64,000 nt of DNA from Nematopogon swammerdamellus (taxonomy: Eukaryota > Arthropoda > Insecta > Lepidoptera > Adelidae). A model generated the notes under the pieces. The model saw only the letters and a program-made list of their open reading frames with translations, was not told the DNA's origin and searched no databases. The stretch lies in the NCBI GenBank assembly GCA_946902875.1, contig OX336343.1:22677596-22741595 (forward strand), read 5' to 3'. Positions 1 to 63,867 of this stretch are shown here, piece after piece. Position numbers and translations under genes: made by a program. The first letter of the stretch is position 1. Each line of letters opens with the position of its first letter.

Positions 1-3000
1 GTACGAATCGACGTCGGCAGAACGCAGAGTTCAACATTTCGTGTTGAAGTGTGACGTAGGTCTGCCGGAATCGACTCTATAACTGAAGCATTATTTGATG
101 CCCAGTCCCTCATCACAAAGCCAGCCTGCCGATGAACTGTGATAATATCTGAGGCGAGTTGAGCAGCCTGCTCAACGTGATCTACACTACCAATGTAATC
201 GTCCATGTAATGGTCGCGTAGAATAGCTTTCGTCGCATCTGGGTATGTATGTTCGAACTCTATAGCATTTTTATTTCGAATGTAGTGAGCAGTGCACGGG
301 CTCGACGTCGCTCCAAAGATCATTGAGCTCATTCTATACTCTTTCACCTTACCTTGAGTATTTCCTTGTCTCCACAGATATCTCTGAGCGTCCCTATCTT
401 CCGCTCTTATTTTTATTTGCGGGAACATCTCCTGAATGTCCGCGGTCATGGCAATACTTCTCTCCCGGAAACGAAATAGAATGCCTAGCAACAACTGCAG
501 CATATCCGGTCCCGGTAAAAGTGAGGAATTTAAACTGACGCCATGTGACTTGGAAGCAGCGTCATGAACGATTCGCAGTTTACCTGGTTTGTTTGGATTC
601 ACAACACCAAAGTGTGGTAAATACCAGAGCGGATTCGTCGATACTTCACCGGTACATTCTTCCGCATAACCCTTGTCAATCATACTTTGCATATTTTTAT
701 TATACAAATCCATAAGTTGTGGAGATTTGATAAGCTTCTTCTCGAGCATCTCTAACCTGCGCCGTGCCTGCGAATAACTTTCTGGCAGTCGAGGGTTGTC
801 TGAGCGCCATAGAAGTCCCACCTCGAAACGTCCACCTGGCAGCCGCCGCGATGTGGTATCGAGGAGCTGTAAAGCACGATTATTTTCTACACCGACACTG
901 TTATATTTTGTAATACCTATGCAGTCCAATTTGTATTGCTCTTTGATAATCGAATCAACGTCTTCAGATTCTGTTTCTACGAGAAAATGAACTTTTTCTG
1001 CAGTCGTGTTTAAAAATTGTACAGGCTTCGACCAACTGTTGTGTACACCGTGCAGAACCCAACCTAGGGAAGTAAGACAGGCAACTGGTTCATTTTTCGT
1101 AGCACTCCTCGTCTCTTTCGAGAGTGTAAGCAGACTATCCGGACTACCTATCAGAACAGTCGGAACGGCGTCCTCGTAAGACAGCTCATTAACGAGATCC
1201 CAGAGATGCACGTAATGTGAGAGATCTAGAGATTTTACCGACTGTCGAGTCAACCCGAGAGAAGGCGTAGATTTAGCATTTTCCACTAAATATAATTCGT
1301 TACATTTTGGACCCCTTATGTGGAAGCTTACCTGTTCAGCTTTCGTTTTCATCGCCATGCCTTTAATTGCACCTATCGTCAAATCCGTTTCGGGGCCAGT
1401 CGCTCCGATACGTCTCGCTACGTCCGAATCGATAAGTGAGACAGTTGCGCCCTCGTCTAAAAAGGCGTAAGTCTCCACCTCCCCGGTTGGCCCACTCACT
1501 ACTACCGGAAGTACTTTAAGCAGCACCTGTCTTGATGACTTTTGCTTAGAAAAGGGTTCAACGAACGTATTCGACACAACGGCCTTATTGCTTTCATCAT
1601 GCTGATCATAGTCAGTTGAACGATTTTCACCAGTACTAGATAAAGTGGAGGTGCCAATTTGAGATGGCTTACAAATGAAACACGCTCTTTCAATCGTAGA
1701 TGACTCCTGCTCAGACTTTGGTTTAGCGACGGGAAAGGTACCTCCGTGCAGTAATCTATTGTGACGCAATCTGCAGCCATTGATACCGCACGGCTTTACT
1801 TTGCAGCTTTTCCACTGATGGGCAGTATCCTTCAAGCACCTGTAACATACTTTAGATTTACGCAGCCAGGCCCACCTGTCATCGACAGCGAGCGATTTAA
1901 ACTTTTCGCAGAAATGAGTGACATGTGATTCTTTACAATATGAGCATTCCGTTGGCTGGGTGAGATTATCTCTAAAGGCCGCACACACTTGGGTGGATTC
2001 TGACGCAACATAATCTTCTTGATCGGAATCTGTTGATATACAATGAACCTGTCCTTTCGCACCACGCTGCTCTCGTTTTGTACCATGATCGAGTTGCGGC
2101 GGGATATGCGGCAGTGTGAGCGGACCGAATTTCATTTGACTTTCAGCCTCGCGAAGTAAAAATTCAGAAAATAAAATCAACTTTACCTGATTAGGTTTTT
2201 CAAATGCATAATCTCTCCACCTCGCTTGCATCCAAGGCGAAAGTTTGTTTATCATTGCATCGAACAATTCCGGCGAGTGAAGATATTCGTGCTTGTCCAG
2301 CAAACGAATCGTTTCTACACAGTTACGAATCCTGCAAGCAAATGTATTTATATCTTTATTTTCATTAAGTTTAGGTAAAGCGCGCATCGTGGCAAGCTCT
2401 TGCATGACCATATGTTCCGGTCTTGCGAAACGTTGCTCCAGCGCGTGTAGAACTTCGTCAGATTCACGTGCGGACACGAGAAGGGACGCGACCGCATCAT
2501 GTGCCTCCCCGCGTACCGCATGTCGGAGGCGCGCGAGGTTTTCCGTCGCTGAATACGAGTCTTTAGTGTCATCGAAAGATCTCTTGAATGCCAACCACTG
2601 AGTGGGATGACCGTAGTAAGGAGGCAACTCTACGTACCACGGCTTTTTAACTCGACTTTTTGACCTAGAGTTCGATGCCAAAGCGGCTATAGCCGAGGCA
2701 AGTTGAGAAATTTCAGACGACTTCTCGTTAGTGATTGCTGACGTATTAATTTGTGTTATCTTACCGATGTCATCAACTTGACCACTCTCATACCGCCGTG
2801 GCGGACTGACCGTAGCCCCACTCCGCCCTAGCGGCGGCCGTGCAGGGATGCTCTGTGCGTGTGCGTTGAGCGAAGAAGGCTCTCGCTCTACACTTGTAGC
2901 CCGCCGCGGTATCACCGTCTGTGGTGTAGATTTGTTGTTGGAATAATATGTATAATTTTCCGAATTGATGACATGATCGGTAACCTGTAATGAGTCCGAG

Positions 3001-3254
3001 TTGTTGACCCAGTCTATTGTGCGGGATGTGTGCACGCTTCCAGTGCGCGTGCTCCCGGCGTCAGTTGAGGCGTCGATAGCAGCCAGCTCCGCACGCAACT
3101 CCAGCTCCGCTAGTTGGCGCTCACGCTCCGCAGCTAGGCGCTCACGCTCCGCAGCTAGGCGCTCACGCTCGGACTCACGCTCGGACTCACGCTTCGCAGC
3201 TAGGCGCTCGCGCTCGGCCTTACGCTCTGCTGCTAGGTGCTCACGCTCCGCAGC
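1..3254 (-). CDS. Bel/Pao retrotransposon Gag-Pol, main frame (partial at the left edge)
   Basis: Read on the minus strand, this frame stays open for more than 1,080 codons from about 3254 to base 1 and leaves the window. In order it shows an E/R-rich helix (about 3100-3250); a Gag-like domain with PYYGHPTQW near 2600-2630, as in DUF1759 proteins; cysteine/histidine knuckles near 1745-1960 (C-x2-C-x3-H-x4-C, then C-x2-C-x5-H-x4-C); an aspartic protease motif FLDEGATVSLID near 1435-1475; and the reverse transcriptase, with TADIQEMF near 425-450 and the catalytic YMDDYI at 192-209. RNase H and integrase would lie left of base 1. The order matches Bel/Pao elements, where this polyprotein makes capsid, protease and reverse transcriptase for copying through RNA. 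Many visible minus-strand short ORFs here are other-frame shadows. The long open frame suggests a young insertion. Confidence 0.93.
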
Positions 3255-3640
3255 AGGCGCTCACGCTCGGCCTCACGCTCGGCGACCTTACGCTCGAGCT
3301 CTATAAGCCGACGCGCGTGGAGTACCTCCGCCGACAACTTACGCGCGACGAGCGAGGATGTCGAGCGCGAGGAGCGCGTGGGACCGGTGCTGCCGTGCTG
3401 CTGCTCACCTACAACACGATCAGAGACAGAATTGGGATCCACGCCTCCTTCGCCCCCACCTCGGGGCGCGTGTGCGACCGGCGCGTGAGGAGCACGGTGC
3501 ACGACCGAGTCCGATATAGAGGACCGACTCATGTGAGGTCGTGCACGCTCCGCACCGGGCGCTGCTCCCGAGACGGACGAAGGGCGATCGTGTGGACCCT
3601 TTGACTCTCGGTCTCGCTTCGTAGAAGCTCTGGTTTTCAT
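3233..3640 (-). CDS. Bel/Pao Gag N-terminus, cut off by a frameshift
   Basis: The ATG at 3640 is the first one after an in-frame TAG on the minus strand, so it is the likely Gag-Pol start. The 135 residues are low complexity (S/R/P/H-rich), then a charged helix of repeated E-R-E and A-E-R units. The frame ends at 3233 with LLRSVST. Just before the end, one copy of the tandem coding repeat reads ccgcagcaggcgc where its neighbours read ccgcagctaggcgc. Loss of that single base near 3255 moves the frame, and the second frame carries the rest of Gag-Pol. A mutation in a repeat tract is simpler than programmed frameshifting, because the site lies far upstream of the Gag/protease border. A sequencing or assembly error is also possible. 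Confidence 0.85.
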   Translation of the reverse strand: MKTRASTKRDRESKGPHDRPSSVSGAAPGAERARPHMSRSSISDSVVHRAPHAPVAHAPRGGGEGGVDPNSVSDRVVGEQQHGSTGPTRSSRSTSSLVARKLSAEVLHARRLIELERKVAEREAERERLLRSVST

Positions 3641-3937
3641 TCTCGCTGTGCTGGACTATACATCCGCTCGAAGTAACCAAAATGATAGCGAGAAATCAAA
3701 ACAGAACTTCCATTGCGAGATTTTTTATTAGAATAATTTTCTTTTTTGACAACTAAAATATTTCAATTTTAATTTGACATTAATATTTTTTTTCTTCGTG
3801 TGAAAGTTGATTTTTGCATATTGGTCGTCAACACAAACATTGGACAGTACGACGTCCCTACCTGTTCTAAGTTTCTTGGCATAAGCATTGCGGCGGAACG
3901 CTGCGTCTGTCATGGGAACCATGCCGGTGATCCCCAC
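3641..3937 (-). other. Probable Bel/Pao leader or LTR remnant, boundary not resolved
   Basis: This AT-rich stretch lies directly upstream (minus strand) of the Gag start, where the leader, primer-binding site and 5' LTR should be. I found no clear TG...CA LTR pair or convincing primer-binding site; the partner LTR would be outside the window. A 69-residue minus-strand ORF (3728-3937) has no recognisable domain and is probably chance. Confidence 0.35.
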
Positions 3938-4134
3938 GATGGATGGATGAATATTTTTGTTTATAGTTATACGTAATTATTTTGACTTATATGTAAGGTT
4001 TTTATTTTTGCTTATGTTTGTACATATATTTTATATTTTAGTCATACATAACATAATATTGCGATTGCGACACTGGAGTGGGAACAACCTAATAATGAGG
4101 AACATCTATCTATAGCGATCGGCGACAACGTGCA

Positions 4135-4215
4135 GAACAGGCTTCTATGCGGCCATCCTTCGTCCAGTGCAGTGGTATCAACCCGGTCGGCTACAATTGG
4201 AGCCTACCACCTAAG
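4135..4215 (-). repeat. SINE family B, fragment
   Basis: It matches the middle of the longer family B copies (the part around the ggcggccat, gtatcaaccc and ggctacaatt blocks) in reverse orientation. The tRNA-like head and the 3' end are missing. The 3938-4134 and 4216-4504 flanks are AT-rich and show no feature I can name. Confidence 0.7.
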
Positions 4216-4504
4216 TAAGGGATGTGTGTCTATGCCTGTAAATTGTGCACTCGTCTACATTTGTTCTTATTATTTCCCGGAAATGTTGTAGGGGAACGTT
4301 ACTAAGTATTAATTAGCTCATAAAATGAACGGAACATGACGTGATTAGACCACCGCGATAAAAAAAGGCAAAATGCCAGGAACTTTCGTCCGCCATGTCG
4401 ACCGCGTCCACCACAATCCCTTTATCAAATAGCACAGTCCCGTTGTTACAAGGAATTGCTACAGCCCGCCAAGTGTGTCATTGTCTAGATAAAGTTGAAA
4501 CTAT

Positions 4505-4785
4505 TATTAAAAAAAAAACATTGAAAAAAACACGTTTCTTGTATGGGAACCCCCCTTAGTTTTTAACTTTTTAAATTTTTTATTATTTGTTATTATATCC
4601 GCCATAATAACACATATTCTGTGAAAATTTCAACGGCCTACCTATTACGGTTCAAGAGATACAGCCCTCGGACAGACAGGCGGACGGACGGACCGGAGGG
4701 ACAGACGGACGGACGGACAGACAAACAGACTGACGGCGTAGGCTTAGTAATAGGCTTCCGTACGGGATACGGAAACCTATATAAT
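4505..4785 (+). repeat. Family A repeat, 5'-truncated copy
   Basis: Family A runs from a GTGCGAGTCGAACTCGCGC block, through CATATTCTGTGAAAATTTC and CAAGAGATACAGCCCTCGG, to a (GACA/GACG)n run and a TACGGAACCCT end. This copy has the second half, with an expanded GGACGGACGGAC block and a degraded end (gatacggaaaccta). I know this end sequence as very widespread in Lepidoptera; its class is uncertain. Confidence 0.85.
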
Positions 4786-4812
4786 CTGTGGAATTATGAT
4801 TAAAAAGTTATG

Positions 4813-4889
4813 GACCTAACCATAGCCGACTATCATTGGTCTTCCTCTGTAGAGGGAGACAATGATAGTCGGCTCGGCTATGACCTAAC
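4813..4889. mobile_element. 61-bp palindromic foldback element with an 8-bp target duplication
   Basis: The element (4821-4881) starts CATAGCCGACTATCATTG and ends with its near-complement. It is flanked on both sides by GACCTAAC (4813-4820 and 4882-4889). It shares its ends with the larger foldback at 5219-5524. An 8-bp duplication fits the hAT or P superfamilies. It sits in a CCTAA-like tract. Confidence 0.8.
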
Positions 4890-4957
4890 CCTATACCTAA
4901 CCTAACCTATCCTTACCTAACCTAACCTTACCAAACCTAACCTATGTTAGGTTGACT
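4882..4957. repeat. Degenerate (CCTAA)n tract, insect-telomere-like
   Basis: The run is made of CCTAAC, CCTTAC and CCAAAC pentamer/hexamer variants. Most insects have TTAGG telomeres, so this looks like an internal telomere-like block. It is too diverged and short to be a chromosome end. The target site of the 61-bp foldback was part of it. Confidence 0.6.
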
Positions 4958-4989
4958 AAAAAGTTGTTGCCCGGGCATTTACCTACAAT

Positions 4990-5747
4990 ATTAATTTTTT
5001 AGGAAGCGCATCATGTGGCGCCTAGCCATCCATAAGGTGTCTAACGACGCCCATGGACTTTCGACGTGGAAACCCGTAACCCAACCGATTCAATTCGAAC
5101 TGCACCTCGCTCACTCACGAAGCCACTCGATCGCCTTATTTCTCCTCAGGGCAGATATTGCATCCCTATACACTGGACTGCACTGGGCTTACCGCGAATG
5201 CGTACCAATCGGTTCTGCCATAGCCGAATATCATTGTCTCCCTCTACGGAGACCAAGCCATGCTGCATCGTCATAGCCCCACTGCGACGTTGCTATCGCT
5301 TACTCGCTCACGCTTGCCTACCGATCACAGGAGCGAGAGAGAAAACGAAGATTTCGTCGGTCGCCCGATGAAGGGTGAGCGATTTCATTTTTCTCTCTCG
5401 CTCCTGTCATCGGTAGGCAAGCGAGAGCGAGTAAGCGATAGCAACGTCGCAGTGGGGCTATGACGATGCAGCATGGCTTGTCTCCGTGACAGTCCAATGA
5501 CAGTGTCCAATGACAGTCGGCTCTGGTTCTGCAGATGTTTCCTCTACAGAACTGGTAAACTCTGGAACGCTCTGCCTGCTCACATATTTTCCCCCAAGTA
5601 CAGTCTCGGGTCCTTCAAGAGATGCGTGAATAGGCACCTGTCAGACCGGGGCATGACATTCGCAACACCCGCCGCGTACGGACCTAATGTCCATGGGCGT
5701 CGTAGTAGACACCTTATTGGTGGTTGGGCTCCACATAAAGCTCTAAA
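4990..5747 (+). pseudogene. LINE 3'-terminal coding fragment, split by a foldback insertion
   Basis: After the insertion (5533 on) the + strand encodes CFLYRTGKLWNALPAHIFSP and then a SFKRCVNRHL block. This is the classical C-terminal tail of a non-LTR reverse transcriptase. Before it (about 5160-5210) lies the matching upstream part. Related tails lie at 29490-29680, 47700-48200 and 48290-48405. The copy has no upstream reverse transcriptase and is dead. SINE B follows directly at 5748. Confidence 0.75.
5211..5532. mobile_element. 306-bp foldback (hAT/P-like) element with an 8-bp duplication
   Basis: The element is 5219-5524, flanked by GGTTCTGC at 5211-5218 and 5525-5532. Its ends are CATAGCCGAATATCATTG and the related complement of GACAGTCGGCTCT. 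Inside are two arms of about 95 bp (about 5248-5342 and 5391-5487) that are almost perfect inverted copies, with a short loop. No coding capacity. The paralogous LINE tail at 29540 has the uninterrupted site, so the insertion boundaries are well supported. Confidence 0.88.
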
Positions 5748-40292: not shown

Positions 40293-42650
40293 TTGTTTGG
40301 ACCCACAGAACACACCGAAGTAATCTTGTATGTAATGGGAAGGAAACCGGTACACCGCACCATCGCAGTGTCCGCACGTGTCACTGCAATCAGTGATCAC
40401 GACGGCCAGCTCGCCTGTCTCAGGGAGAGCTCTCTGCAGGCCGGTCGCGAACCTCCTGCCTCTGTACAGCGGAGGCTTCGTACACCCGGCAGAGTGAGCC
40501 AGTATTGCGAAGCGATCGAATTATATGACCGGAGTAAAATAGTATGTAACAGTAATTATTCAATTGAAGTTAAGTTTGAAAAGTTTATAAATGTATTAAC
40601 CTATTATATAAATATGTATTTTCCCATGAAAATGTCAAAAAGTAGAAATAAGAAAAACGAATACTGGATGAATGACGACATATTATCACTAAAGACAAAA
40701 CTCTGTCACACATTTGAAATGAAAAAACAATTCCCTGATAGAGACGTTTTAAAAAAATGTATTGAGAAGTACAAGACAGCTATAGATATAATGTCTTGGC
40801 AAAGTCGTAGAGATTGCATCGAGTCAAGGATTATGAATAGTAATAATCCTAAAAAAGAGATATGGCGAGTGATTAAAGATGAAACCAACAGAGGGCAGTG
40901 CAGGGAAGATGGTATTCACAAGCTTATAACCTCAGACGGAGATGATGTTCCTATTGAAAACATTCCTGAATGTATGAACATGCACTTCCTGAATATCGGA
41001 AGTAAGCTAACAGCCCTGAATCCAGCTTCTCCAAGCAAAGCATTGTCCCTAATGGTAGACATTCCCAGTCTTGATGCCGACCAAACCTTTTGCCTACCCT
41101 ATGTCATACCTGAAAAAATTTCAAAATTAATACGTGACAAATTATCTAAAAAAAGCAGTCTTGATATTTTTGAGTTGTCGGGAGAGTTGATTGCCAAATG
41201 TTCAAATAGTTTGTCGCCATACATATCAGTATTGGTTAACCAAATGTTTGAAGAGGGTACCTATCCTAATGTACTAAAACAGACCCGTGTATGTCCCATT
41301 TATAAAGGAGCCGGCGAAAGAGCTGACCCAAATAACTATAGGCCTATAAGTTTAGTGCCAGCACTATCTAAAATCATAGAATCTGTTATATCTGACTCTG
41401 TAATTAAGCATCTTGAGGATAATAAACTTCTTTCTCCCAACCAATACGCATACCGTAAAGATCACTCCACAAAATCAGCTGGCATGAAGCTAGTAGGAGA
41501 GATAATAAAAGATATAGACAAGAGGAACAAGGTTGCAGGTATATTCTGCGACTTGTCGAAAGCATTCGATGTCGTAGACCACAACCTCCTCTTGCACAAA
41601 TTGGAAAAATATGGAGTAAGTGATAAACCACATGAATTGCTAAAGTCATTTTTAACAGATCGAAGACAGGTCACTGAGGTCACTTTAAAAGGAAACAAAA
41701 AAAGTTCCGAGCCAGGTAAAATTAAAATGGGTATTCCACAGGGTTCTGCATTAGGTAATACATTATTTTTAGTATTTATTAATGACTTAGCCTTGATTAA
41801 AATAGATGGTGTTTTAATACTTTTTGCCGATGACACTAGTATAATAGTCTTTGCTGAATCCATGCATGAACTGGAAATAAAATTAAATATGGTAGTAGGA
41901 AAAATATCGGAATGGTTTGCTGTGAACGGACTGATACTAAATACATCGAAGACCAACTATATGGTATTTTCCGGACGAAACTGTGGTCCCCGTGAGCTCT
42001 CTATTTCGAATTCATCCGGCTCTATTGGCTCCCAGTCATGTATACGATTTTTAGGGTTCTATATTGACCCAACTCTAAGTTGGAAAAGTCACATAGACAA
42101 ACTATGTGACAGGATGGCTAGAGGTATTTACGCACTAAGAGAGTTACGCCGCTTGATCAGTCCGGAGGCTTTGAGACAGTCCTACTATGCGTACGTACAC
42201 TCATTACTGTCGTATGGTGTAATCCTGTGGGGTAACTCAACCGATGCTGAAAGAGTGCTAATACTGCAAAAACGAGCGATAAGGGTATTAGCCAGTGTAC
42301 CGCGAACAACATCTTGTAGAGACTTTTTCAAATCCTTTGGTATATTAACTGTGTACTCTCTATATATATATGAAGTAGTGGTATATGTACGCAAAAACAT
42401 GAATTCTTTTGAGTCAAATGGCGCAAGCCATAATTATAACACACGTAACTCAGAGCGTTTAAAATCTGTTGCGCATAAATCGGCGATGGCTGAAAAAGAC
42501 CCTGACGTGATTGGACCCAAATTGTACGAAAATGTTCCTGATACAATAAAATCAATAAATAGTGACAATGTGTTCCAGAGTCAACTGAAAATATTTCTCT
42601 TAGACAATCCATTTTATAAGTTAAGTGAATTTTTTTCATACTGTAAATAA
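40293..42650 (+). CDS. Non-LTR retrotransposon ORF2, reverse transcriptase intact, 5'-truncated
   Basis: 785 codons without a stop. The N-terminus keeps the end of an endonuclease-type domain (AISDHDGQL near 40400); the rest of the endonuclease is missing and the first codon used is TTG, so the original start lies upstream and is lost. The reverse transcriptase shows NNYRPISLVP, CDLSKAFDVVDH (motif A), KMGIPQGSALG (motif B) and LFADDTS (motif C, about 41822-41840), then a thumb region and a YNTRN block near the C-terminus, ending LSEFFSYCK. The pattern fits jockey/CR1-group LINEs. It would copy its RNA by target-primed reverse transcription, but the lost endonuclease makes this copy non-autonomous. 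The open frame indicates a recent insertion. Confidence 0.93.
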   Translation: MFGPTEHTEVILYVMGRKPVHRTIAVSARVTAISDHDGQLACLRESSLQAGREPPASVQRRLRTPGRVSQYCEAIELYDRSKIVCNSNYSIEVKFEKFINVLTYYINMYFPMKMSKSRNKKNEYWMNDDILSLKTKLCHTFEMKKQFPDRDVLKKCIEKYKTAIDIMSWQSRRDCIESRIMNSNNPKKEIWRVIKDETNRGQCREDGIHKLITSDGDDVPIENIPECMNMHFLNIGSKLTALNPASPSKALSLMVDIPSLDADQTFCLPYVIPEKISKLIRDKLSKKSSLDIFELSGELIAKCSNSLSPYISVLVNQMFEEGTYPNVLKQTRVCPIYKGAGERADPNNYRPISLVPALSKIIESVISDSVIKHLEDNKLLSPNQYAYRKDHSTKSAGMKLVGEIIKDIDKRNKVAGIFCDLSKAFDVVDHNLLLHKLEKYGVSDKPHELLKSFLTDRRQVTEVTLKGNKKSSEPGKIKMGIPQGSALGNTLFLVFINDLALIKIDGVLILFADDTSIIVFAESMHELEIKLNMVVGKISEWFAVNGLILNTSKTNYMVFSGRNCGPRELSISNSSGSIGSQSCIRFLGFYIDPTLSWKSHIDKLCDRMARGIYALRELRRLISPEALRQSYYAYVHSLLSYGVILWGNSTDAERVLILQKRAIRVLASVPRTTSCRDFFKSFGILTVYSLYIYEVVVYVRKNMNSFESNGASHNYNTRNSERLKSVAHKSAMAEKDPDVIGPKLYENVPDTIKSINSDNVFQSQLKIFLLDNPFYKLSEFFSYCK

Positions 42651-59866: not shown

Positions 59867-60300
59867 GTTTCCTTCCGTAACAGCCGTCAAAGAGCGATCA
59901 CTTCTTTCTTCATCCCTCAAACAAAGGTAGTCGCCCGTGTTTAAATTCGTTATACCAACGGTACACGGTTGCCATAGAAAGTCCTTTATCCACAAATTCA
60001 ATTTGAAGTCTATCAAACGATCCCGGTTTTAGGCGCCATGAAATTTGAATTCGTAAAAAATCATCGCGCGAAAATGTTCGCGATGGCACAGCATATATAT
60101 GGCTAAAGCAGTATGGAAACTACGTACAAAACGATCGAAACGACGCACTCACACACACGCACGCCTCAACAAGGCCCCGAAGCGAATGTCGCAAACAATC
60201 AGTCGCGGGTGCCGCGTCCGAGTGGTCGTGTTTGTTTTTGTTGCATGCGCCACGGACAGTCCGCGATCTTTTAGAATGCAAAAAAATGTTTACAAACGTT

Positions 60301-62265
60301 TTTCGACTGTTGTCACTTTATATTAACTTTTAACAAATGTTGACAACTTTTGTCAACTTTTCTAATCTTTTGCCAACTTCTGTCACATTTTGTCAACTTT
60401 TATCGACTGTTGTCAACTCTTGTCAACTTTTCTTATCTTTTGCCAACTTCTGTCACCTTTTGTCAACTTTTATCGACTGTTGTCAACTCTTGTCAAGTTT
60501 TATAAACTTTTGAGAACTTTTGTCAACTCTCGGTAACTTATGTCAACTCTTGTCAACTTTTCTAATCTTTTGCCAACTTCTGTCACCTTTTGTCAACTTT
60601 TATCGACTGTTGTCAACTCTTTTCAAGATTTGTAAACTTTTGAGAACTTTTGTCAACTCTCGGTAACTTATGTCAACTCTTGTCAACTTTTCTTATCTTT
60701 TGTCAACTTTTATCGACTGTTGTCAACTCTTGTCAAGTTTTATAAACTTTTGAGAACTTTTGTCAACTCTCGGTAACTTATGTCAACTCTTGTCAACTTT
60801 TGTCAACTTTTCTAATCTTTTGCCAACTTCTGTCACCTTTTGTCAACTTTTATCGACTGTTGTCAACTCTTTTCAAGTTTTGTAAACTTTTGAGAACTTT
60901 TGTCAACTCTCGGTAACTTATGTCAACTCTTGTCAACTTTTCTTATCTTTTGCCAACTTCTGTCACCTTTTGTCAACTTTTATCGACTGTTGTCAACTAT
61001 TGTCAAGTTTGTAAACTTTTGAGAACTTTTGTCAACTGTCGGTAACTTATGTCAACTCTTGTGAACTTTTGTCAACTTTTCTTATCTTTTGCCAGTTTCT
61101 GTCACCTTTTGTCAACTTTTATCGACTGTTGTCAACTCTTGTCAATGTTTGTCAACCTTGGTCAACTTTTGTCAACTTTCGTCAATATTTGTCAACTTTT
61201 GTCATCTTTTGTCAACTTTTATGGACTGTTGTCAACTATTGTCAATGTTATCAACCTTGGTCAACTTTTGTCAACTTTCGTCAACATTTGTCAACTTTTG
61301 TCATCTTTTGTCAACTTTTATCGACTGTTGTCAACTCTTGTCAATGTTTGTTAACCTTTGTCGGCTTTTGTCTACTTTTGTCATCTTTTGTCAACTTTTA
61401 TCGACCTGTGTCAACTTTTATCGACTGTTGTCAACTATTGTCAATGTTTATCAACCTTGGTCAACTTTTGTCAACATTTGTCAACTTTTGTTATCTTTTG
61501 TCAACTATTATCGACTGTTGTCAACTGTTGTCAATGTTTGTCAACTTTTGTCAACTTTCGTCAATATTTGTCAACTTTCGTCATCTTTTGTCAACTTTTA
61601 TCGACTGTTGTCAACTCTTGTCAATTTTTGTCAACCTTATATAAATATATAATAATATAAATATAATAAATAATAACCGTTTATTGGATGAAATCATTAC
61701 TTATGCTATGTTGGTACATTTTTTCAAATTAATTTACATAATTTAATTTCATCCAATAGGAGGACATTTTACCTTAAGGTAATCTCCTCCTGTCCCCCTA
61801 TTGGTGTTACATCAAAAGAATATGTCACAGAACAAAACCTTGGTCAACTTTTGTCAACTTTCGTCAACATTTGTCAACTTTTGTCATCTTTTGCCAACTT
61901 TTATCGACTGTTGTCAACTCTTGTCAATGTTTGTTAACCTTGTCGGCTTTTGTCTACTTTTGTCATCTTTTGTCAACTTTTATCGACCTGTGTCAACTTT
62001 TATCGACCTGTGTCAACTTTTATCGACTGTTGTCAACTCTTGTGGTTGTTTGTCAACCTTAGTCAACTTTCGTCAACATTTTTTCATCTTTTGTCAACGT
62101 TTGTCAACTTTTGTATACTTTTCTCGACTTTTGTGAACTTATAGCCACTTTCGTCATCTTTTGTCAACTTTTGCCAACTTCTCTCAGCTTTTGTCAGCTT
62201 TTATCATATTTTAACCACTGTTGTCAACTTTTGTCACTTTTATGAACTTTTGTCAGCTTTCGTTA
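60301..62265. repeat. Minisatellite arm 1, (TTTTGTCAACTTTTG)-type 15-mers
   Basis: Units such as ttttgtcaacttttg, tcgactgttgtcaac, ttttgtcatc. Two higher-order patterns are seen: one marked by ctcggtaactta (60531, 60661, 60771, 60911, 61040; 110-140 bp apart) and one by tcaatgtttgtcaacctt (61140-62060). Because 15 is a multiple of 3, the array is open in three + frames for up to 191 codons; these are not genes. Confidence 0.95.
61635..61845. repeat. Non-repeat interruption in arm 1
   Basis: About 210 bp of AT-rich DNA, with acctt at both edges and an internal inverted pair attggatgaaat/atttcatccaat, suggesting a small insertion in the array. Confidence 0.6.
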
Positions 62266-63495
62266 ACAAGGAGTTGACAAAAGTTGACACGAGTTTACAT
62301 AAGTTGACTAAAGCTGACAAGAGTTAACGAAAGTTGACAAACTAGACAAAAGATGGGAAAAGTTGACGAAAGTTGACAAACAGCTGACATAAGTTGACAA
62401 ACGTTGACAAAATATGAAAAAAGTTGACTTGACTTAGTTGACATTAATTAACAATAGTTGACGAAAGTTGACAAACGTTTACAAGAGTTGACAAAAGTTC
62501 ACGAAAGCTGACAAAAGTTCATAAAAGTGACAGAACTTGGCAAAAGTTGACAATAGTGGTTAAAAGTTGACAATAGTGGTTAAAAGTTGACAGAAGTTAG
62601 TAAAAGTTGACAAAAGATGATGAAAGTTGACAACAGTTGACGGAAGCTGGCCTAAGTTCATAAAAGTGACAGAAGTTGGCAAAAGTTGACAAAAATTTCC
62701 GAAAGTTGACAACAGTCATTAAAATTTTACAAAAGCTGATAGAAGTTGGCAAAAATTGACAAAAGATGACGAAAGTGGCTATAAGTTAACAAAAGTCGAC
62801 AAAAGCCATAAAAGTAGACAAACGTTGACGAAAGTTGACAAAAGTTGACAAAAGTTTACTAAAGTTGACAAATGTTGACAAAAGTTGACAAGAGTTGACA
62901 TAAGTTACCGAGAGTTGATAAAAGTTCTCAAAAGTTTACAAAACTTGACAAGAGTTGACAACAGTCGATAAAAGTTGACAAAAGGTGACAGAAGTTGGCA
63001 AAAGATGAAAAAAGTTGATAAAAGATGACGAAAGTGGCTATAATTTCACAAAAATCGAGAAAAATAGACAAAAGTTGACAAACGTTGACAAAAGATGATA
63101 AAAGTCGACAAATGTTGACAAAAGTTGACAAAGATTGACAAGAGTTGACAACAGTCGATAAAAGTTGACAAAATATGACAAAAGATGACAAATGTTGACG
63201 AAAGTTGACAAAAGTTGACCAAGGTTGACAAACATTGACAAGAGTTCACAACAGTCCATGAAAGTTGACAAAAGATGACAAAAGTTGACAAATGTTGACG
63301 AAAGCTGACAAAAGTTTACCAAGGTTGACATACATTGACAAGACTTGACAACAGTCGATAAAAGTTGACAAAAGATGACTGAAATTGGCAAAAGATGAGA
63401 AAAGTTGACAAACATTTACAATGGTTGACAAAAGCTGACAAAAGCTATAAACAATTTACAAAAGTTAATAAAAGTTGACAAAAGTCGAGAAAAGT
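62266..63495. repeat. Minisatellite arm 2, inverted orientation
   Basis: Same units on the other strand (aaagttgacaaaag). Both higher-order patterns recur (taccgagagttgataaaag at 62905; aaggttgacaaacattgac at 63220), so arm 2 is a rearranged inverted relative of arm 1. Confidence 0.95.
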
Positions 63496-63867
63496 TATAT
63501 CAATTCATATTTATAGCAACCACGTTTTGAAATTATTATTGATGATTGATTATATTGATTATTTGATCATTACATTAAAGAACCTAAATAAATGTTTTAA
63601 TAAATAATTATTTTACAATTTTACAAAAAAATTTGATTGACATCCCTAACGCTCCAATGGAGCGTAGGTACTTATTTTAACAAATAGGCCTAGTTTCCAT
63701 ACTGCTTTAGCCATATATATGCTGTGGCGATGGCGTTCCATTTTTGAATGAGACAAGATAGTTGAATTTCGCTGTTAAAAAAATGTGGAGGGAAATTTTA
63801 AATTGGAACGTTCGCATTTTTACTTGTAAATAATTGTCTTAAATATTAATAAAACTTTCTGAGTGCC

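Follow-up and report, generated by a model that had tools for sequence, protein, structure and literature searches.

The 64,000-nucleotide stretch of DNA analyzed here (hereafter, the window), which lies at positions 22,677,596 to 22,741,595 of contig OX336343.1 of the moth Nematopogon swammerdamellus, harbors at positions 60087-63726 a 3,640-bp element that is almost certainly a foldback transposon, with long inverted arms made of a 10-bp satellite. The family to which this element belongs is a young, high-copy and non-autonomous group of cut-and-paste elements of foldback shape, moved with a probability of about 0.7 by a P-superfamily transposase. A preliminary description, made from the letters of the window alone, had considered the element to be foldback-like and mobile, and this view was borne out by its relatives in the same genome, with terminal inverted repeats (TIRs) and target-site duplications in all 40 copies checked.

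Foldback elements are best known from Drosophila. There, Galileo has produced natural chromosomal inversions, as stated in the accessible portion of the literature on this element. A young moth family with hundreds of TIR copies and inverted arms of approximately 0.5-2 kb would likewise be a ready source of rearrangements and of hairpin RNA. In addition, because copies with near-identical ends differ mainly by steps of 10 bp, the family offers a natural series for measuring the growth and shrinkage of an inverted satellite. In the literature searched, whose coverage of subscription journals was limited, no listed title or abstract opening mentioned a foldback element in Lepidoptera.

Architecture of the element

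From one end to the other, the element consists of a 36-bp TIR, a left unique block, a forward array of 10-bp units, a single strand switch, an inverted array, a right unique block and a second 36-bp TIR (Table 1). The inverted TIRs recognized in the preliminary description are indeed present at both ends, but they are 36 bp in length rather than 35 bp, and they are perfect. The flanking duplication is likewise real, although it measures exactly 7 bp (GCGATGG) and not the 8 bp initially proposed: the eighth shared base is the opening C of the left TIR, which on the right is matched by a flanking C by coincidence.

Table 1. Features of the foldback element, given as positions within the window
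Feature	Positions	Strand	Remarks
Left target-site duplication, GCGATGG, 7 bp	60080..60086	no strand	Exactly 7 bp in 40/40 copies checked
Left TIR, 36 bp, starting CACAGCAT	60087..60122	+	100% match to right TIR
Left unique block, 172 bp, 51.7% GC, 20 CpG	60123..60294	no strand	No match to right unique block
Left arm, outer part, forward 10-bp units GTCAACTTTT	60295..61637	+	TRF, shift identity
203-bp insertion in left arm, not part of the array	61638..61840	no strand	Absent from 19/19 other complete copies
Left arm, inner part, 10-bp unit GTCAACTTTT	61843..62260	+	Repeat finding
Strand-switch junction CGTTAACAAGGAGTTGACA	62261..62279	no strand	By eye; common to 17/20 copies, with point variants
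Right arm, 10-bp unit GTCAACTTTT and some variant units of the left arm, reversed	62272..63496	-	
Right unique block, 194 bp, 23.7% GC, AATAAA signals	63497..63690	no strand	
Right TIR, 36 bp	63691..63726	-	Identical to left TIR
Right target-site duplication, GCGATGG, 7 bp	63727..63733	no strand	

A change of strand had been placed near position 62270, and the distribution of two hexamers in 100-base bins from 60201 to 63600 agrees with it: GTCAAC is confined to the bins up to that holding the switch, and GTTGAC is encountered from the switch bin onward, save for one occurrence at the outer edge near 60301. The repeat unit, in contrast, had been given as 15 bp and turned out to be 10 bp. The period returned by TRF for the arms is 10, and the identity of the sequence with itself after a shift of 10 bases reaches 0.71 and 0.68 in the outer and inner parts of the left arm, respectively, and 0.67 in the right arm, as against 0.21-0.22 after a shift of 15. 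Open reading frames run through the arrays, the longest reaching 191 amino acids, because the 10-bp unit contains no stop on one strand.

The 203-bp insertion has AACCTT on either side and, by eye, is AT-tailed and SINE-like on the minus strand. When the flanks of the element are joined, the minus strand of the insertion site reads MERHREHFRAMIFYEFK, with LKPGSFDRLQIEFVDKGLSMATVYRWYNEF in another frame; we take this site to resemble a decayed mariner transposase, and a search of Pfam with its 59-amino-acid piece returned no match. Elsewhere in the window, an open frame of 785 amino acids at positions 40293-42650 encodes a reverse transcriptase domain (PF00078, E-value 2.1e-28), of non-LTR type by eye.

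Genome-wide distribution and conservation of the plan

The genome searched comprises 699 Mb distributed over 39 contigs. The left-end query led to 699 first-look candidates, 40 of which were scored, all being 99-100% identical. The exact 36-bp TIR was found 574 times genome-wide (285 forward and 289 reverse), and the reversed TIR pattern, used as a control, did not occur once in the 699 Mb; chance is therefore excluded. Among the first 100 of these 574 places, 88 make up 44 pairs, each with a plus-strand followed by a minus-strand TIR, with a median length of 2,861 bp and 42 of the 44 shorter than 4 kb. The 12 other places in this hundred are single ends, three of which (C3:4891216, C4:6830652 and C4:14834032) are faced by a variant TIR, on the expected side and 3.0-3.4 kb away. 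With every exact TIR paired at the median length, the family would account for roughly 0.8 Mb of the genome.

Copies were examined in two sets. Set 1 contains the window copy and the 20 best-scoring of the 39 other scored left ends (L009-L028), while set 2 contains 20 TIR pairs taken in list order from contigs C1 and C2, two already-read pairs being skipped and both TIRs being exact by construction. Both TIRs were present in 20 of the 21 members of set 1, with the right one perfect in 17 of these 20 and with element lengths ranging from 2,098 to 3,657 bp. A duplication of exactly 7 bp flanks every one of these 20 copies, L028 with its shortened right TIR being left out of the count, and the same is true of all 20 copies of set 2, including L047, whose orientation was not set by the script and which was counted as listed. 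The preliminary description had proposed to look in the same genome for copies with 8-bp duplications; copies with duplications were found, at 7 bp in the 40/40 checked. In L028, the right TIR stops 18-19 bp short of its tip and TCATTGG is still visible at both junctions (by eye, in this single case); P elements are excised with a 17-nt staggered cut, and the loss is close to that length.

All 21 copies that were read through display the same succession of left block, forward array, one switch, reverse array and right block, although in most of them the outermost bin of the left array scores as mixed or as reverse. In the 20 complete copies, a set drawn from the left ends with the highest scores, the left TIR and its adjacent block match at 100% along 207-208 of the 208 bp. 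Four of the 20 have an incomplete right block: L012, L020 and L027 lack its inner 88 bp, and in L013 it is interrupted. AATAAA is found within the right 230 bp of all 20 copies. In L026, the right end and its flank (CGCGTAGTCCCTCCG) are present twice, 2.7 kb apart (about 2600-5310), as a local tandem duplication involving the element. Beyond this genome, exact searches with pieces of the TIR found nothing among viral contigs (25 bases) or prokaryotic contigs (21 bases), a result that is uninformative on other moths.

Origin and evolution of the inverted arms

By eye, the junction at the strand switch is common to 17 of 20 copies. The remaining three (L009, L014 and L018) deviate in a manner that deletions across the center would explain. 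The preliminary description had named an assembly artifact at the switch as an outcome that would overturn its proposal; since the same junction recurs in 17 of 20 insertions, the switch is not such an artifact and, being shared, the inverted array must be older than the spread of the family.

In all 20 copies, the left arm aligns with its own inverted right arm better than do all 40 unit shuffles, by a margin that is somewhat generous since shuffling also breaks the seams between units. Variant units such as ATCGACTGTT and GTCAACTCTT, counted in two copies, are common to both arms. The shared order of the units and the shared variants indicate that the two arms derive from one array by inverted duplication. 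We then compared arms using a similarity score divided by the length of the shorter arm, a normalization that favors the short right arm of L009. The values were 0.72 between left arms and 0.76 between right arms, as opposed to 0.42 for the left and right arm of a single copy and 0.41 for arms taken from different copies, and the own right arm was the best partner of the left arm in only one of 20 copies. Based on these figures, the inverted duplication is old relative to the spread of the family and the arms have not been homogenized within a copy, so that homogenization, which we had considered as a candidate process, was rejected.

The arms measured are about 0.5-2 kb long. In the 25 closest pairs of left arms, which are not independent of one another, 89 of the 119 gaps of at least 5 bp have a length that is an exact multiple of 10; another 49 gaps fall below 5 bp, and substitutions represent 1.9% of the aligned columns. 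Between L010 and L023, the length of the left arm differs by a single 10-bp unit. The arms may change in length while DNA is replicated or gaps are repaired, via slippage or via unequal exchange.

Target-site preference

The flank of the window copy was part of the query, which biases the last bases of the left duplications in set 1; the target motif was therefore derived from set 2. In this set, position 2 of the duplication is C or T in 19 of 20 copies and position 6 is G or A in all 20, while G at position 1 and C at position 7 are each found in 10 of 20. The resulting motif, about GYANTRC, denotes a palindromic preference. In Galileo, the available part of the report describes 7-bp duplications (8-bp in three copies) with the consensus GTATTAC within a palindrome (PMC4168063); the set 2 motif is a partial match to GTATTAC, which has a palindromic GT..AC core.

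Candidate transposases

The preliminary description had left the choice between a P-type, a hAT-type or a new element open, and the 7-bp duplication together with the target motif favors P-type over hAT. Elements of the P superfamily generate duplications of 7 or 8 bp, as does the present family at exactly 7 bp, and other members of this superfamily have TIRs of 30-50 bp according to the accessible text of PMC3688188. We therefore consider it probable that a P-superfamily transposase moves the foldback family. No transposase with these ends was found in the stretches read, so the grounds for assigning the family to P are the lengths of its duplication and TIR together with its target motif. 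The ends would be the remains of a P-superfamily element whose gene has been lost, and the copies would be mobilized in trans by a transposase of this superfamily. By analogy with the ends of Galileo, where the THAP domain binds sites within the tandem repeats in one subfamily (PMC3688188, as far as available), the arm repeats may add transposase-binding sites.

P-type genes are abundant in this genome, with at least 85 matches to the P-type RNase H domain above the cut-off from 100 candidates scored, many of them in long open frames that have the same length at several places. Contig C23 holds 20 of these at least 85 matches, many short or broken, a pattern that might be expected of a W chromosome or another degenerate region. 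Eight representative genes, each read with 6 kb, all encode P-type domains, and six of them were also read in a second copy. L034-L039 represent three P-type families, each multi-copy and each encoding a THAP domain, with open frames of 913-1034 codons; in two of them a CATAGCC-type end is visible by eye. When the first 16 bases of the TIR were compared with the 6 kb around the eight genes, the closest match had four mismatches, most element ends lying outside these stretches or being undefined; in at least three families (L030, L033 and L036), homology between copies extends to one or both limits of the stretch. Ends could be defined for two of the P-type elements, one having CACAGACAACAT and TATGAAGG and the other CAAAGAGTTTGT and GGTATTGC, and in each case the duplication is of 8 bp and not 7 bp. 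One of the eight has CACAG- ends.

A longer, autonomous copy with a transposase had also been proposed as a target for searching. None was found between matching TIRs in the two long pairs looked into (6.8 kb on C1 and 5.7 kb on C26, of which 1.6 kb was read in two pieces). Contig C3 has a further long pair, of 4.1 kb, and C14 has two variant ends that lie on the same strand. The C1 pair was rejected as an autonomous partner, being a foldback copy with a nested Transib, and in the C26 pair, likewise a foldback copy, other DNA interrupts the right TIR. TIRs followed by A or T amounted to 10 point variants, all with A.

The nested Transib-like element lies in the left block of the C1 foldback copy, from position 715 of L043 to about 1805 of L044 (G000:C1, about 17733514-17738205), and presents a 751-codon open frame and CACAGTGGGGCGATACCG ends. 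The first 542 residues of this frame match 6pqn, a DNA transposase that we take to be the Transib of Helicoverpa zea, with an E-value of 1.4e-119, and Pfam gave no significant match for the protein. Taking the ends as symmetric, its duplication appears by eye to be of 5 bp (CGTCG); also by eye, the pieces of the left block around it overlap by 8, three being the TIR's own CAC. Its tip, CACAGTG, is identical in sequence to the V(D)J signal heptamer.

Predicted folding and possible hairpin RNA

Folding was computed for four copies treated as RNA, without a shuffled control. The window copy reached -1519.7 kcal/mol; to the left of its switch lie 2,159 bases, and 1,059 of these pair with bases on the other side. 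The corresponding numbers were 1,036 of 2,196 in L010, 691 of 1,127 in L024 and 481 of 1,485 in L017. Given this predicted pairing across the switch and the AATAAA in the right end, a hairpin transcript may be possible.

A more far-reaching proposal, which we judge doubtful, is that a P-type lineage of moths has turned into a self-amplifying inverted satellite, with stacked transposase sites and with hairpin RNA entering the siRNA pathway. The 10-bp unit, close to one turn of DNA and with a phased T-tract, would then provide the transposase with scores of binding sites in a stack, and a transcript starting in the CpG-rich left block and ending at the AATAAA of the right block would form a kilobase hairpin RNA. 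If true, one structure would tie the element and its silencing by the host together.

Alternative explanations

Taken alone, the arms look like an inverted satellite array, and they could be attributed to an ordinary satellite with a chance inversion or to an assembly artifact at the switch. The recurrence of the same plan at other sites, complete with TIRs and duplications, and the junction found in 17 of 20 copies refute this explanation, to which we grant a negligible probability. A non-autonomous hAT-type element was conceivable in view of the eight bases common to the two flanks of the window copy and of the target sites of hAT elements, which usually duplicate 8 bp and favor a T in the second position and an A in the last but one, similar to the Y and R of set 2. 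However, the eighth base is coincidental at the window site and the duplication is of exactly 7 bp in 40/40 copies; assignment to hAT with an 8-bp duplication was hence rejected, a hAT origin being very improbable.

Most described foldbacks seem to belong to the Mutator superfamily, and an element of FB, Phantom or Rehavkus type has to be weighed accordingly. Repeat-filled inverted arms are known there from Tm1, among others, Tetris having been assigned there too (PMC3169594, PMC4079207), and Rehavkus bears a minisatellite before its 3' TIR (PMC6446971), as far as the accessible parts of these articles tell. Nevertheless, the available text of PMC6446971 gives duplications of 8-11 bp for Mutator elements, with 9 bp for Rehavkus, and the constant 7 bp of our copies makes membership among Mutator/MULE elements unlikely. 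We give still less credit to a new cut-and-paste superfamily with 7-bp duplications. It would agree with the failure to find a partner transposase and with ends that match none of the P-type stretches read, but the absence of the partner is weakly tested, and a 7-bp duplication and a similar target motif are already combined in Galileo, according to the part of its description at hand.

Comparison with known foldback elements

Long repetitive inverted arms within a mobile unit flanked by duplications, which characterize the foldback class, were found throughout the family (plan in 21/21 copies, duplications in 40/40). The FB element of Drosophila, of Mutator type, similarly has kilobase inverted arms of short tandem repeats that differ in length between copies, but it duplicates 9 bp of its target instead of 7 bp. 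From what is accessible of their descriptions, Tetris of Drosophila virilis is a foldback with tandem repeats in its arms and is apparently non-autonomous (PMC4079207), and Tm1 of root-knot nematodes is a foldback whose arms contain a variable number of 13-15 bp units (PMC3169594). According to the same sources, both differ from the window family by their duplications, of 8-10 bp and 9 bp, respectively. Tm1 furthermore has 7-bp non-inverted motifs at its tips, and some of its members encode a putative transposase, whereas the moth family has inverted tips with long unrelated blocks inside them. Rehavkus shares with it the status of a DNA transposon with a minisatellite near one end, but the available text describes an element that carries a transposase, has a 9-bp duplication and places its minisatellite ahead of the 3' TIR (PMC6446971).

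The comparison with Galileo, likewise limited to the accessible parts of the articles, reveals both differences and likenesses. Galileo has inverted ends of 0.5-1.2 kb that extend to the tip, repeats of about 140 and 210 bp and many copies with transposase segments. In the window family, by contrast, only the 36 bp and the satellite arms are inverted, with unrelated, non-matching unique blocks between them, the unit is of 10 bp, and there is neither a middle domain nor a linked transposase. The two nonetheless have in common the 7-bp duplications, a palindromic GTATTAC-like target, the foldback shape and, in some subfamilies of Galileo, tandem repeats in the ends (PMC4168063, PMC3573991, PMC3688188).
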